Assembly: GCF_027625995.1 (NCBI RefSeq) | Contig: NZ_CP115396.1 | Span: 1,488,001-1,552,000, forward strand | DNA: 64,000 bases | Direction of reading: 5' to 3' | From: Hymenobacter yonginensis | GTDB lineage: Bacteria > Bacteroidota > Bacteroidia > Cytophagales > Hymenobacteraceae | In this document: positions 21,648 through 25,906 of the stretch, in pieces | Layout: each line of letters opens with the position of its first letter | How positions within the stretch are numbered: the stretch's first letter is position 1 | The notes under the pieces: generated by a model | Told to the model about the DNA's origin: nothing | Databases searched by the model: none | The model's input: only the letters and a program-made list of their open reading frames with translations | Program-made: the position numbers and the translations under genes

Positions 21648-22082
21648 CTACTTCACCCGCTGCCAGTAATGGGCCTTGCCAATCAGCGAAAACCCGATGT
21701 AGCCCTTCACCTCCAGCCGGTCTTTGCCGGCCGCGGCCACGTAGCAGGAGTAGGTGCGGCCGTTGTCGGGGTCGTAGATTTCGCCATCCTCCCACCGGTC
21801 GGTTTCGGCGTTGTAGCGCAGGTTCTGCAGCACCGTCAGGTTCAGCAGGGGCTGGGTGCGCCGTTCGGGAGTAGGGTGGTGCTCATCTAAGCGGGGCTTG
21901 CCGTTGGCATCGGTGGGGGTGCGCAACCATACAATACGGCCGCACAACTGCTCGCCACAGCGGTACAGCTCAATATGCGAATCGCCGGTATCGTCGGCCC
22001 ACACGCCCAGCGGGGGCGTTTGCGCCGCGGCCGGCAGCTGTGCCAGCAGGCCTATCAGTAAACTCAGCAGCAGGTATTTCAA
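21648..22082 (-). CDS. DUF2147 family secreted protein (second copy)
   Basis: 144 residues from a TTG at 22082, chosen because MKYLLLSLLIGLLAQLPAAAQ then aligns with the signal peptide of the neighbouring paralogue. The DUF2147 core is clear: PLGVWADD, ELYRCGEQLCGRIVWLRTP, EDGEIYDPDNGRTYSCY and EVKGYIGFSLIGKAHYWQRV. The paired cysteines in YRCGEQLCG are conserved with the upstream copy. It lies 135 nt downstream of that copy, with a terminator between, so it may have its own promoter. Function of the family is unknown. Confidence 0.85.
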   Translation of the reverse strand: MKYLLLSLLIGLLAQLPAAAQTPPLGVWADDTGDSHIELYRCGEQLCGRIVWLRTPTDANGKPRLDEHHPTPERRTQPLLNLTVLQNLRYNAETDRWEDGEIYDPDNGRTYSCYVAAAGKDRLEVKGYIGFSLIGKAHYWQRVK

Positions 22083-22151
22083 GCGCGAAAGAACCGTTAA
22101 GGAAACAGGATACTTTGCCCGCTGCCGGAGTTGGGCAGCAGGCGCAGACCA

Positions 22152-22187
22152 CAAAAAAACGACGCCTCCGCAGTGCGGAAGCGTCGT
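22152..22187 (-). terminator. Terminator between the two DUF2147 genes
   Basis: On the minus strand a 13-bp stem (22187-22175 with 22171-22159; core ACGACGC/GCGTCGT, one mismatch) is followed by seven T. It lies 30 nt after the stop of the 22217 gene. Confidence 0.8.
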
Positions 22188-22216
22188 CAAGTATACGCAA
22201 TCAATGGCAGACAGGC

Positions 22217-22657
22217 CTATTTCACGCGGGTCCAGGTCTGCGACTTGCCAATCATGGAGAAGCCGATGTAGCCTTTCACTTCCATGGAATTGGCGTTGAG
22301 CATCTTCATGTAGCAGGAGTACGTTTTGCCGCTTTCGGGGTCGTAGATTTTGCCATCGTCCCACTTGTTGTCGTCATCATACTCAAAGCCCTGCATAAAC
22401 ACCATGCCCAAGCGTGGGCGGGTGCGCAGCTTGGGGTTGGGATTCTGCGAGTCGGTTTTGGGCTTGCCGGTGGCGGGGTCGTTTGGTACGGTCAGCGTCA
22501 CGATCTTGCCGCAGAGCTTATCACCGCACTTATAGATTTCGAACGTGGCTTTCTTCTCCGAATTGGTCCATGTGCCCAGCGGAGACAGGGTTTGCGCCGA
22601 AGCCAGGCCGATGGCCCCGAACAGGAAGGCGAGAGAAAGGAACAGGAATTTTTTCAT
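22217..22657 (-). CDS. DUF2147 family secreted protein (first copy)
   Basis: 146 residues with a signal peptide ending GLASAQ. DUF2147 landmarks: PLGTWTNSEKKATFEIYKCG, DKLCGKIV, DDGKIYDPESGKTYSCYMK and EVKGYIGFSMIGKSQTWTRV. It is clearly paralogous to the gene at 21648, same strand, same length, so a tandem duplication. The family is a periplasmic or secreted small beta-barrel of unknown role. A -7-like TATCTTTT lies upstream on the minus strand at 22690-22697. Confidence 0.88.
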   Translation of the reverse strand: MKKFLFLSLAFLFGAIGLASAQTLSPLGTWTNSEKKATFEIYKCGDKLCGKIVTLTVPNDPATGKPKTDSQNPNPKLRTRPRLGMVFMQGFEYDDDNKWDDGKIYDPESGKTYSCYMKMLNANSMEVKGYIGFSMIGKSQTWTRVK

Positions 22658-22865
22658 GGTGTAAAATGAGGAATTGGGGTAAGGGTGGGAAAAGATAGGA
22701 GAAAACTCCTACATGGCAGCATCCGGCCATTACGAAAATGTTGATCTGGTGGATGGCAAGTTTGAGGCCAGGCTTTTAGCGGATAGGCTATGCAAAAGAA
22801 AGCGGCTGATCATCAGGGCGCTGGCCCCGAAACCCCGGTGGGGCCCTAAAAAAAGGGGTTTTTAT

Positions 22866-22895
22866 TTTGAACCATCCGGCAGGCTTATAACTTTA
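22866..22895 (+). promoter_or_regulatory. Promoter of the non-coding/sORF unit
   Basis: TTTG at 22866-22869, 18 nt, then TAACTTTA at 22888-22895, close to the Bacteroidota consensus. Predicted start near 22902. Just upstream (about 22830-22862) is an AACCCC/GGGGTT stem followed by T-rich sequence that could isolate the unit from upstream transcription. Confidence 0.6.
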
Positions 22896-22991
22896 CCTAT
22901 CGTAGTGAGTGCTACAGCCCCGCCCAAGCAGCCCTAAGGTGCTGGGAGGCGCGGCCGGGGTTATGTCGAACGTAAAGAAAGGAGGTACAAA

Positions 22992-23063
22992 ATGTCTAGT
23001 AGTCCCAAACAAATCCTGCCAAGCCTGTCGAATGTAGTTCGCCTCACCGCCGAACGCGCTTAA
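22992..23063 (+). CDS. Putative 23-residue peptide with perfect Shine-Dalgarno
   Basis: ATG at 22992, stop TAA at 23061-23063. AAAGGAGGT at 22978-22986 ends its GGAGG core 6 nt before the ATG, ideal spacing. The peptide begins MSSSPKQILP and ends VVRLTAERA; it is basic-amphipathic with no signal peptide. Shine-Dalgarno sequences are rare and mostly not used in this phylum, so such a strong one is unexpected. It may be a real small protein, a leader peptide or chance; codon content alone cannot decide. Confidence 0.4.
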   Translation: MSSSPKQILPSLSNVVRLTAERA

Positions 23064-23183
23064 CAACAGCTTTCGCGCGGAAAAACGCCCCATTTGGCTT
23101 TTTCCCGCATTCTGGCAAGGTCTTACACAACAGATGGCGGGGCTGTACCCCAGACTCGTCGCTTGGTAAGATTTGAAGGATTA

Positions 23184-23248
23184 GATGCCCGGTCCGCCCA
23201 GCAGCCTCTCAATTGAGGACTGCATAGGCGGCCGGGCATCGTTTTTTT
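23184..23248 (+). terminator. Three-tier terminator ending the RNA unit
   Basis: GATGCCCGG (23184-23192) pairs with CCGGGCATC (23232-23240), CCGCC with GGCGG inside it, and GCAGCCTC with GAGG-CTGC at the tip; seven T follow at 23242-23248. Confidence 0.85.
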
Positions 23249-23250
23249 AC

Positions 23251-23423
23251 GGAGTAGCTGAGTAGCGGAGCAACTGAGTATCTATGTTCGATACAACAGA
23301 ACGATTACTCACTGCTGTTTCGCAGTATGATGGTTTCAGTGGCGCAGGGACGCGAACTGCAAAGTTCGCGCTACTACCGTTGCCTAACAGCAGTTACTCA
23401 GTTACTCCACTACTCAGTTGCTC
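23251..23423. repeat. Hairpin of phased octamer words before the NlpC/P60 stop
   Basis: Left arm: four 8-nt units at 23251-23282 (GGAGTAGC, TGAGTAGC and variants). Right arm: four 8-nt units at 23392-23423 (AGTTACTC twice, then variants), complementary to the left. About 110 nt separate them. Read on the minus strand, the right arm begins in the TAG stop codon of the NlpC/P60 gene. Confidence 0.82.
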
Positions 23424-23968
23424 TACAGCACCCGTCGCACCTGCATGAAGCGCCGCTCATAGTCGGTGCCTTCCACCTGGCTGATTTTGACGCCTGACTC
23501 GCGGCGTGCCGACGAGGAGTGAATGAACTTCAGCGGCTGGCCCGGCTCCGAAACCACAATCCCGGCGTGCCCGGGCGTGGCAGCACCAGGCGCCGTACCC
23601 GTAAACACCACAATGTCGCCGCGGCGGGCCTGCTCCCGGGTCACGGGCCTGCCTACCGCAATCAGCAGGGCCGTGGAGTGCGGCATGGCCACCCGAAACT
23701 CCTGAAACACATACTGCACGAAGCCTGAGCAGTCGAAGCCGGTGGCGGGGGTGCTGCCGGCGTAGCAGTAGTTGGTGCCCAGCTGGCGCATGGCAAAGGC
23801 CACGACGCTGTCGGGCGTGGGGCGGGTGCCGGTGACCAGCGCCACTTGGTGCGTCGGCAGGTTCGATTGTTGGCTGGGGCCGGGAGCTGAGGCCGGGCGC
23901 GAAGTTCCGGCAAAGTAACCAACCAACAGGGCTGCCAGCACAAGAAAGCAAATCCAGACGTAGCGCAT
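23423..23968 (-). CDS. NlpC/P60 family cysteine peptidase
   Basis: 181 residues from the ATG at 23968; the frame is open far upstream but the extension is not homologous. Residues 4-22 are an N-terminal membrane anchor. The NlpC/P60 domain has Cys80 in TGFDCSGFVQYVF, His134 in PGHAGIVVS and a third polar residue in the HSSSARR region. GTNYCYAGSTP is the usual loop before the active Cys. It should cleave peptide stems of peptidoglycan from the periplasmic side. Divergent from the M61 peptidase gene. Confidence 0.92.
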   Translation of the reverse strand: MRYVWICFLVLAALLVGYFAGTSRPASAPGPSQQSNLPTHQVALVTGTRPTPDSVVAFAMRQLGTNYCYAGSTPATGFDCSGFVQYVFQEFRVAMPHSTALLIAVGRPVTREQARRGDIVVFTGTAPGAATPGHAGIVVSEPGQPLKFIHSSSARRESGVKISQVEGTDYERRFMQVRRVL

Positions 23969-24106
23969 ACCAAATAGCAGGGGTGAAGGCTTCGCTAACG
24001 GTGGAGCCAGGCCGGTAGTTTCCGCGGCGGCACCCTGCGGCTTGCAGCCCTGCCCGTTTTTCGCCGTTCTTTGCCCCAACGATAACCTCTCACTCACTTC
24101 CTTTTC

Positions 24107-25906
24107 ATGACCCATTCTCGTACCCGAGTGCTGCTGGCGCTGGTGCTGGGGCTGCTGCTGAGCCAGTTTGGCCCGGCTATGGCGGCTCCCGTGCTGCGCT
24201 ACACGCTGGCCATGCCGGCGCCCCAAACCCATTATTTCGAGGTCGAAACCAGCCTCAGCGGCTTCGGCAAGCCCTATACCGACCTGAAAATGCCGGTGTG
24301 GGCACCCGGCTCGTATCTGGTGCGCGAGTTTGCCCGCCATGTGGAAGGCTTCACGGCCCAGGCCGGCAGCGAAACGCTGCGCACCGAGAAAATCACAAAA
24401 AACACCTGGCGCGTATTTCACCCCAAGGCCAGCAGCTTCACGGTGCGCTATAAGGTGTACGCCTACGAGCTGAGCGTGCGCACCAGCTTCCTCGACGCGG
24501 CCCACGGCTACGTGAACGGCACCAGCGTGTTTATGTACCCCGCCGAGGCCAAGCAGCTGCCCAGCACGCTGGAAGTGAAGCCCGCCACCGGCTGGGCCCA
24601 GGTTTCGACCAGCCTCAAGCCGGCCGGCGCCCCCAACACCTTCCGCTCGGAGAGCTACGACGAGCTAGCCGATTCGCCTATTGAAATCGGCAACCAGAAG
24701 GTGCTGAGCTTCGAGGCCAACGGCACGCCGCACACGGTGGCCCTGTTCGGCGCCGCGAAAATGGACGAAGCCAAGCTGCTGGCCGACATGAAAAAGGTGT
24801 GCGAGGAAGCGCACCGCGTGGTGGGCAAAAACCCGCTGGACCGTTACGTATTCATCGTGCACAACATCGACCGGGGCACGGGCGGCCTGGAGCACCTGTA
24901 TTCCACCACGCTGTCGGTGTCGCGCAACGCCTATGCTTCCGATGCCGGCTACAAGGGCTTCCTGGGGCTGGTGGCGCACGAGTACTTTCACCTCTGGAAC
25001 GTGAAGCGCATCCGCCCCGTGGCCCTCGGCCCGTTTGACTACGACAACGAAAACTACACGCACATGCTGTGGGTGAGCGAAGGCGGCACCAGCTACTTCG
25101 GCGACCTGATTGTGCAGCGCGCCGGCTTTGTGAGCGTGGATGACTACCTGGCCAGCACCAGCAACGGCATCACCCGCGTGGAAAACACGCCCGGCAACAA
25201 GCAGCAGTCGGCCGCCGAAAGCAGCTTCGACGCCTGGATCAAGGGCTACCGGCCCAACGAAAATTCCAGCAACACCGGCATCAGCTATTACGACAAGGGC
25301 GAGCTGATCGGGGCCGTGCTGGATCTGATGATCATCAACGAAACCAAGGGCCAGAAGCACCTCGACGACGTGATGCGCTACCTCTACGATGAATATTACG
25401 TGCAGAAGAAGCGCGGCTTCACCGACGAGGAATACCAGGCCGCCGTGGCCAAAGTAGCCGGCCGCCGCTTCGACGACTTCTTCCGCCGCTACGTGTACGG
25501 CACCGAAACGCTGCCCTACGCCACCGCCCTTGGCTATGCTGGCCTGAAGCTGACCGTGTCCCCGGCTCCGGCCGAACCAGCGCTGGGTGCTACCATCAGC
25601 GGCGCCAACGGCAAATACACCGTGACCAGCACCACCCGCGACGGTAGCGCCTGGCAGGGTGGCCTGAACGTGAATGACGAAATCCTGGCCCTCGATGGCG
25701 CCCGCCTCACCGCCGACCCCACCCAGCAGCTCAGCAGCCGCGCCGTGGGCTCGGAAGTGAAGATGCTGGTGTCGCGCGACGGGCAGCTGCAGGAGCTGCG
25801 CTTCCCGCTGCTGGCCAGCACCACGCAGCGCTACCGCATCGAGCGGATGGAAAACCCCACCGCCGAGCAGAAAACCGTACTGGCTAAGTGGCTGGCGGTG
25901 AAATAA
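24107..25906 (+). CDS. M61 family (glycyl aminopeptidase-like) metallopeptidase with PDZ domain
   Basis: 599 residues with a signal peptide ending PAMAA. The N-terminal beta domain (about 30-200) is followed by DRGTGGLEHLYST and the zinc motif HEYFHLWNVKRIRP (H291, E292, H295), where WNVKRIRP is the M61 hallmark; the third ligand is in WVSEGGTSYFGD. A C-terminal PDZ domain lies at about 490-575 (SAWQGGLNVNDEILALDG). It probably trims extracytoplasmic peptides. Monocistronic, with a palindromic terminator following. Confidence 0.94.
   Translation: MTHSRTRVLLALVLGLLLSQFGPAMAAPVLRYTLAMPAPQTHYFEVETSLSGFGKPYTDLKMPVWAPGSYLVREFARHVEGFTAQAGSETLRTEKITKNTWRVFHPKASSFTVRYKVYAYELSVRTSFLDAAHGYVNGTSVFMYPAEAKQLPSTLEVKPATGWAQVSTSLKPAGAPNTFRSESYDELADSPIEIGNQKVLSFEANGTPHTVALFGAAKMDEAKLLADMKKVCEEAHRVVGKNPLDRYVFIVHNIDRGTGGLEHLYSTTLSVSRNAYASDAGYKGFLGLVAHEYFHLWNVKRIRPVALGPFDYDNENYTHMLWVSEGGTSYFGDLIVQRAGFVSVDDYLASTSNGITRVENTPGNKQQSAAESSFDAWIKGYRPNENSSNTGISYYDKGELIGAVLDLMIINETKGQKHLDDVMRYLYDEYYVQKKRGFTDEEYQAAVAKVAGRRFDDFFRRYVYGTETLPYATALGYAGLKLTVSPAPAEPALGATISGANGKYTVTSTTRDGSAWQGGLNVNDEILALDGARLTADPTQQLSSRAVGSEVKMLVSRDGQLQELRFPLLASTTQRYRIERMENPTAEQKTVLAKWLAVK

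Follow-up and report, generated by a model that had tools for sequence, protein, structure and literature searches.

Bacteroidota ribosomes hide the tail of their 16S rRNA, and the best-studied extended Shine-Dalgarno (SD) sequence in the phylum is that of rpsU. A 765-bp intergenic gap (22658-23422) in the window, the 64-kb stretch of Hymenobacter yonginensis DNA analysed here, holds an SD sequence of that kind just before a 23-codon ORF. The original prediction placed in this gap a promoter, a foldable 5' domain, a perfect SD, the ORF and a terminator with seven T, and proposed an undescribed RNA or peptide family that might sense the free 16S tail or the ribosome state, act as a leader peptide or encode a small protein. 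The elements of the locus are as follows.

22866-22895, + strand: Bacteroidota-type promoter read from the sequence, TTTG (22866-22869), 18 nt, TAACTTTA (22888-22895)
22902-23248, + strand: whole RNA gene, ~347 nt, its start estimated from the promoter and the first hairpin
22902-22915, + strand: 5' hairpin P1 (GUAGU GAGU GCUAC)
22918-22960, + strand: second 5' stem-loop domain (P2, P3)
22976-22986, + strand: extended SD AGAAAGGAGGT, 11 nt complementary to the 16S tail
22992-23063, + strand: ORF MSSSPKQILPSLSNVVRLTAERA, stop TAA
23001-23005, + strand: clamp strand a (AGTCC), partner 23178-23182
23011-23024, + strand: clamp strand b within the ORF, partner 23161-23174
23161-23182, + strand: 3' clamp strands GCTTGGTAAGATTT (23161-23174) and GGATT (23178-23182)
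23184-23248, + strand: intrinsic terminator GATGCCCGG...CCGGGCATC followed by T7

Homologues were gathered by searching GTDB contigs for the M61 gene, which gave 80 loci; the M61 peptidase of the window shares 94% identity with its counterpart in Hymenobacter sp. BT190. The RNA region was matched by BLASTN in 42 of these loci, and together with the window they form a 43-row alignment covering Hymenobacter, Solirubrum, Adhaeribacter and Rufibacter. The predicted coordinates of the gap and the promoter were borne out; the TTTG-18 nt-TAACTTTA arrangement fits the consensus of Bacteroidota promoters, and TTTTGAAC and the -7 element are nearly invariant across the 43 rows. The ORF with its TAA stop and the terminator ending at 23248 are likewise present as described. 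The stem of the terminator appears in the predicted fold and is conserved in the same alignment; in many relatives the T run has fewer than seven T or is interrupted. A consensus terminator scan of the window did not list 23184-23248, the stem being interrupted. As a whole, the segment 22895-23250 folds at -141.9 kcal/mol, compared with -114.9 kcal/mol (sd 5.7) for shuffled sequences (z -4.7, reached by 0/100 shuffles).

Minus-strand genes flank the gap, DUF2147 on one side and NlpC/P60 on the other. The DUF2147 side (21648-22657, minus strand) carries two adjoining DUF2147 genes that are 48% identical over 129 residues. On the NlpC/P60 side, an inverted repeat (23252-23423) separates that gene from the RNA terminator; it has 32-nt arms that are 84% complementary and with tandem TACTCAGTTACTCCAC-like units; a related stretch occurs in locus L004.

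To follow the RNA across genomes, we used two models, a covariance model of 136 positions covering the 5' part and the ORF start (R1) and a sequence model of 91 positions (R2). R1 matched exactly once in each of the 150 genomes sampled from the family of BT190 (Hymenobacteraceae by NCBI), so that homologues in sister genomes, which the original prediction had called for, are plentiful. Across the order sample, R1 matched in 54/291 genomes at E 0.01, among them G395, whose match was judged false, and R2 in 61/291 at the same threshold. Fifty-four of the R2 matches were below 1e-9; 45 of these strong matches lie in the 150 family genomes and 9 in the other 246 genomes, including two Cytophagales bins (L044 and L049). 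No family member was found in named Spirosoma, Larkinella, Fibrella, Fibrisoma and Emticicia genomes, nor in named Mucilaginibacter, Pedobacter, Flavihumibacter and Solitalea genomes, where the weak matches that were read proved to be other sequences; these absence calls are weak because scoring was limited to the best 10 to 22 candidates in each genome (the best 120 in the named-genome search). In the class sample, R2 matched 22/395 genomes at E 0.01, comprising four family genomes, six members accepted by eye (L183-L188) and 12 matches that were not accepted. Common to the six distant members are the 5' hairpin, a similar SD, an ORF of 19-23 codons, a 3' element of the AGGA type and an end resembling a terminator. 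The SD pattern by itself was rejected as a class-wide family finder: it matched in 41/395 genomes, mostly at unrelated sites, and 7/30 loci that were read were members. Viral contigs gave no exact match to AGAAAGGAGGTN{2,6}ATGTCTARTCC.

None of the 4227 models of Rfam 15 reached its gathering score in the window (the best sub-threshold match, mir-370, scored 18.6 vs 70 bits), and none did so at the RNA in the loci of 12 relatives. The sole Rfam match in those 12 loci was a cobalamin riboswitch just downstream of the RNA in L185 (1191-1417). In the full-text literature searched on Cytophagales and Bacteroidetes RNAs, on SDs with small ORFs and on rpsU autoregulation, which takes in no preprints and few subscription papers, no description of the RNA stood among the matches listed; PMC11109978 and PMC8632094 gave no match to Hymenobacter, Pontibacter or Cytophaga, and PMC2864571 gave none to Cytophaga. 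With homologues, covariation (see below), a conserved SD and no Rfam match at gathering score, the idea of an undescribed RNA or peptide family has held, and the RNA family, its structure, its SD and its ORF are well supported by comparison of sequences. It adds a family that Rfam does not contain.

The predicted foldable 5' domain was confirmed by covariation. For P1-P3 we used 31 of the 43 rows, leaving out 12 close Hymenobacter relatives. In P1, 98.1% of cells are paired, with two of the five pairs varying on both sides and three invariant; both-side changes occur in 5/5 and 2/2 pairs of P2 and P3. Taken together, the three stems have 94.8% of cells paired and both-side changes in 9/12 pairs, values reached by 0/500 shuffles and compared with 28-52% in slid controls. 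The second structural element is a clamp, which joins codons 4-11 of the ORF to a strand ~150 nt downstream. In 46 joined rows, clamp strand a is paired in 100% of cells, four of its five pairs never varying, while the long helix formed by strand b shows compensatory, both-side changes in 13/14 pairs, one column containing all six standard pair types. None of 500 shuffles reached any of the covariation measures, and slid controls gave 24-48%; the pairing percentage of the clamp leans upward because the register was fitted. In 74 unique sequences, strand b kept 12.8/14 pairs, compared with 8.7 for shuffled strands allowed the same freedom of register, a count that left out L146, L183, L185, L187, L188, the loci lacking the AGGAT element and two loci that were too short (L139 and L140); a further multi-locus row set left out L146, L154 and L183-L188. 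One pair of the AAUCC/GGAUU part has undergone a compensatory swap in L183, L185 and L187, distant members in which this part reads GUUCC/GGAAU. Cross-clade energies showed that own clamp partners beat the cross-clade mean in most clades; they were not better in C139, L146 and L188 and hardly so in X166, and the Pontibacter-like clamp strands pair even better with the partner from one Hymenobacter clade. In single-sequence folding the clamp forms partly, with a mean probability of 0.57 over 35 sequences and 0.24 in the window.

The SD itself was partly misdescribed in the original prediction. The element is present before the ATG, and AAAGGAGGT ends 5 nt, not 6, upstream of it; its match to the 16S tail is perfect and longer than had been stated, AGAAAGGAGGU pairing over 11 nt at -17.7 kcal/mol. 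The conservation that was to be looked for is nearly complete: AGAAAGGAGGT is exact in 148/150 family genomes. One tail sequence being assumed for all, pairing is -16 kcal/mol or better in 150/150 family genomes and, on the same assumption, -16.8 to -20.3 kcal/mol in 127/128 loci of a wider set. Of the 19 genomes tried, 15 contain the genomic 16S end GGATCACCTCCTTTCT (the BT190 draft does not), and at 10/10 loci read it stood in a 16S context. Within the window, AGAAAGGAGG occurs once, with a chance mean of 0.07 and at least one copy in 6/100 shuffles. The pattern GAAAGGAGGTN{2,8}ATG has 1-5 matches per genome in 19 genomes, and the reversed control pattern matched in 11. In the 11 genomes with a Hymenobacter-type ORF, the RNA is always among the matches and is the sole match in six; of the six other matches in those genomes, the five that were read all fall short of the full 11 nt. 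Two observations stand apart. One family member, L261 (G232, ~1501-1562), which is the exception among the 128 loci, has an SD that lacks three bases (AAAGAAAGGTGC, -8.2 kcal/mol) and keeps the ORF and the 3' clamp strand; the missing bases reflect a real loss or an assembly error. Moreover, L294 and L308 (G015 and G011) carry GAAAGGAGGT before the ATG of an ORF of 393 codons whose N-terminal stretch is hydrophobic, another possible SD-read gene.

Is the ORF read? In the 150 family genomes, anchored at the start region with no length filter, its length is 23 codons in 103 genomes and 22 codons in the other 47; it begins with ATG in 134 and GTG in 16 and ends with TAA in 103 and TAG in 47. The wider set of 128 loci (130 examined, minus the false L147 of G395 and L031 at a contig edge), in which 15-30 codons were admitted, gave lengths of 19-23 codons and the stops TAA (99), TAG (22) and TGA (7). 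L091-L099 are absent from all counts on these 128 loci (ORF, clamp, 16S pairing and downstream ORF) and are included among the 150 family genomes. Indels between Hymenobacter and Adhaeribacter or Rufibacter are in-frame. We then counted single changes on minimum spanning trees of the unique ORFs. In frame 0, 44/104 changes were synonymous in the 23-codon group (0.423 vs 0.285 expected, p 0.0018) and 38/100 in the 22-codon group (0.380 vs 0.258 expected, p 0.005), a test that is not pure because RNA stems within the ORF also restrict change. On the same trees, frames 1 and 2 showed no significant excess; they contain 53 to 130 in-frame stops, compared with none in frame 0. An earlier pairwise count agrees in two of three groups, and in the third, the Pontibacter-like group, frame 1 is as high as frame 0. 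Since frame 0 combines a synonymous excess with the lack of in-frame stops, translation of the ORF is very likely and the peptide is under weak to moderate constraint, as judged from these comparisons. By this comparative evidence, the translated ORF that marks a dual-function small RNA is supported here.

How would such a message be read? Ordinary ribosomes should ignore the SD, because bS21, bS18 and bS6 normally hold the 16S tail in this phylum. A strong SD followed immediately by a clamp therefore suggests a message that is best started by ribosomes whose 16S tail is available and is opened by being read. In the mechanism that we propose, a stand-alone, single-copy RNA gene would yield a folded message in which an SD of 11-12 nt matches nearly the whole 16S tail and codons 4-11 are clamped to the strand ~150 nt downstream. 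Ribosomes with a free tail, either lacking bS21 or immature, would bind the SD and initiate, and their reading of the 22-23 codons would pry the clamp open and change the RNA fold. The changed fold might expose the 3' strand, or the RNA might become loaded with free-tail ribosomes; in either case it would report or buffer such ribosomes, which is the role of the rpsU SD elsewhere. We infer the transcription of the gene, the kind of ribosome that reads it, the unclamping and the output of the opened RNA or of the peptide. A clamped mini-message that is opened by free-tail ribosomes and reports ribosome state is the reading we favor, tentatively and at somewhat less than an even chance. In its favor are the single copy per family genome, the conserved ORF and SD, the 16S pairing energies, the covarying clamp and the rpsU contrast given below; against it weigh the kinship behind that contrast, the weakened SD of L261, the lack of a signal for RNA-rpsU pairing, the partial clamp in single-sequence folds and the few strong R2 matches (9/246) beyond the 150 family genomes. 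The sensing that the original prediction had suggested would fit, by analogy, the published bS21 mechanism.

The main rival is a functional small peptide: the RNA would be mainly the mRNA of a product of 22-23 residues, made when bS21-less ribosomes rise, and its structure would tune translation. The synonymous excess confined to frame 0 and the absence of in-frame stops speak for it, as do the MS(S)[SN]P-like starts of the peptides in the 150 family genomes and an IL or VL in 143/150. It is harder to reconcile with the 58-62% of counted ORF changes that alter the peptide, with the distant members, whose peptides look unrelated (e.g., MSCSNCNLINFITINAYRR), and with the conservation of structure beyond the ORF; the three peptides tested had no Pfam or NCBIfam match. 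We consider this explanation somewhat unlikely. Another rival makes the SD-like element a dock, either for a protein or for the free 16S tail, and the RNA a decoy or an assembly chaperone whose translation is incidental. The coding start is clamped in a helix and the SD is conserved well past the needs of initiation, as this idea would expect, but an untranslated RNA would need neither the three kinds of stop that end the 19-23 codon ORFs of the 128 loci nor a frame free of stops next to frames with dozens, which makes it improbable. A leader peptide or attenuator, also named in the original prediction and suggested by an SD, a short ORF and a terminator in one transcript, is not supported and is very improbable: the nearest downstream ORF of at least 100 codons is on the opposite strand in 105/128 loci and varies in length and distance in the other 23, and the next gene in the window (NlpC/P60, ORF 23423-24505, minus strand) is convergent to the RNA gene. 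A divergent housekeeping RNA (tmRNA, 6S, SRP or RNase P) would account for the single copy per genome, the ~350 nt and the tmRNA-like internal ORF, and is just as hard to credit, given the lack of Rfam gathering-score matches in the window and at the relatives' RNA loci; tmRNA as a candidate was rejected, with no ARAGORN hit in the window and no tmRNA model match or tRNA-like ends, and tmRNA is present in 10/10 genomes searched, at another place in the RNA-bearing ones.

We fetched bS21 genes from 44 genomes (14/14 and 30/30), all at sites apart from the RNA. A strong rpsU SD was found in none of the 23 RNA-bearing Cytophagales genomes (+0.7 to -9.9 kcal/mol) and in nine of 15 genomes without the RNA (-17.0 to -19.8 kcal/mol), namely two Emticicia, three Pedobacter, two Mucilaginibacter, Flavihumibacter and Solitalea. 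The remaining six without the RNA also lack a strong rpsU SD (two Spirosoma, two Larkinella, Fibrisoma and Fibrella). Pedobacter, Mucilaginibacter and Solitalea belong to the Sphingobacteriales and Flavihumibacter to the Chitinophagales; because these seven genomes, all with a strong rpsU SD, are from other orders, the contrast within the Cytophagales is 0/23 vs 2/8 (Emticicia). Among six distant RNA-bearing genomes, three have both the RNA and a strong rpsU SD, two have the RNA alone and one was unparsed; three of the six carry additional bS21 genes beside those compared. The contrast follows lineages and is confounded by kinship, and is for that reason only suggestive of the RNA having taken over, or come to share, the sensing role; it may loosely support ribosome-state sensing. 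Direct pairing between the RNA and rpsU gave no signal in any of the 17 genomes scored, out of 18 listed (z -2.2 to 1.5), a weak test that used crude duplex energies and very long duplexes. A bolder reading is a trans-acting RNA sensor, in which the control that bS21 elsewhere exerts through its own SD would have moved onto, or be shared with, a dedicated RNA in the Hymenobacteraceae and some relatives, and free-tail ribosomes would switch its fold; we regard this as rather unlikely.

Two further observations were made during this comparison. The distant genomes G754, G697 and G717 each have two or three bS21-like genes. Spirosoma terrae, with no detected RNA copy and no strong rpsU SD, encodes at L262:1338-1505 (minus strand) a 55-residue protein with a still stronger SD, AAAAAGAAAGGAGGTG (-22.2 kcal/mol); it has no clear family and one Pfam match far below the cut-off, and its identification as rpsR was rejected, since the translation is a different protein.

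Lastly, the RNA family can be set beside known systems. tmRNA has ~350 nt, an internal short ORF and a long-range helix, features that are found in the RNA family too; the family differs in its SD, its AUG or GUG start and its own terminator, and no tRNA-like ends were found. The VcdRP-type dual-function small RNAs (PMC8672173) are similarly small and stand-alone, with a short ORF and conserved RNA parts, whereas the RNA family has no known base-pairing targets, an extended SD and an ORF within a long-range helix. The Downstream-peptide motif/yfr6 (PMC2864571) is likewise a structured RNA (~250 nt) with a short ORF and indels in multiples of three; it is cyanobacterial, and only its 5' UTR seemed conserved there, in contrast to the RNA family, in which the SD, the ORF ends, the 3' clamp strand and the terminator are conserved as well. 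The closest comparison is with the rpsU messages. According to PMC9976891, F. johnsoniae ribosomes without bS21 gain SD use, the extended SDs of rpsU in Bacteroidota have 9-13 bp and about -14 to -21 kcal/mol, the criteria for them apply to ~20% of Cytophagales and not to ~80%, and the whole-genome SD screen covered Flavobacteriales. Pairing in the RNA family lies within that range and is below -13 kcal/mol in 150/150 family genomes, and both belong to a phylum with ribosomes that largely disregard SDs. The differences are that the RNA family encodes no bS21 or other ribosomal protein, having a 22-23 codon ORF instead, and that it is a stand-alone structured RNA with a covarying clamp. With a conserved non-ribosomal RNA that carries an rpsU-like SD, what bS21-less ribosomes read becomes directly testable.
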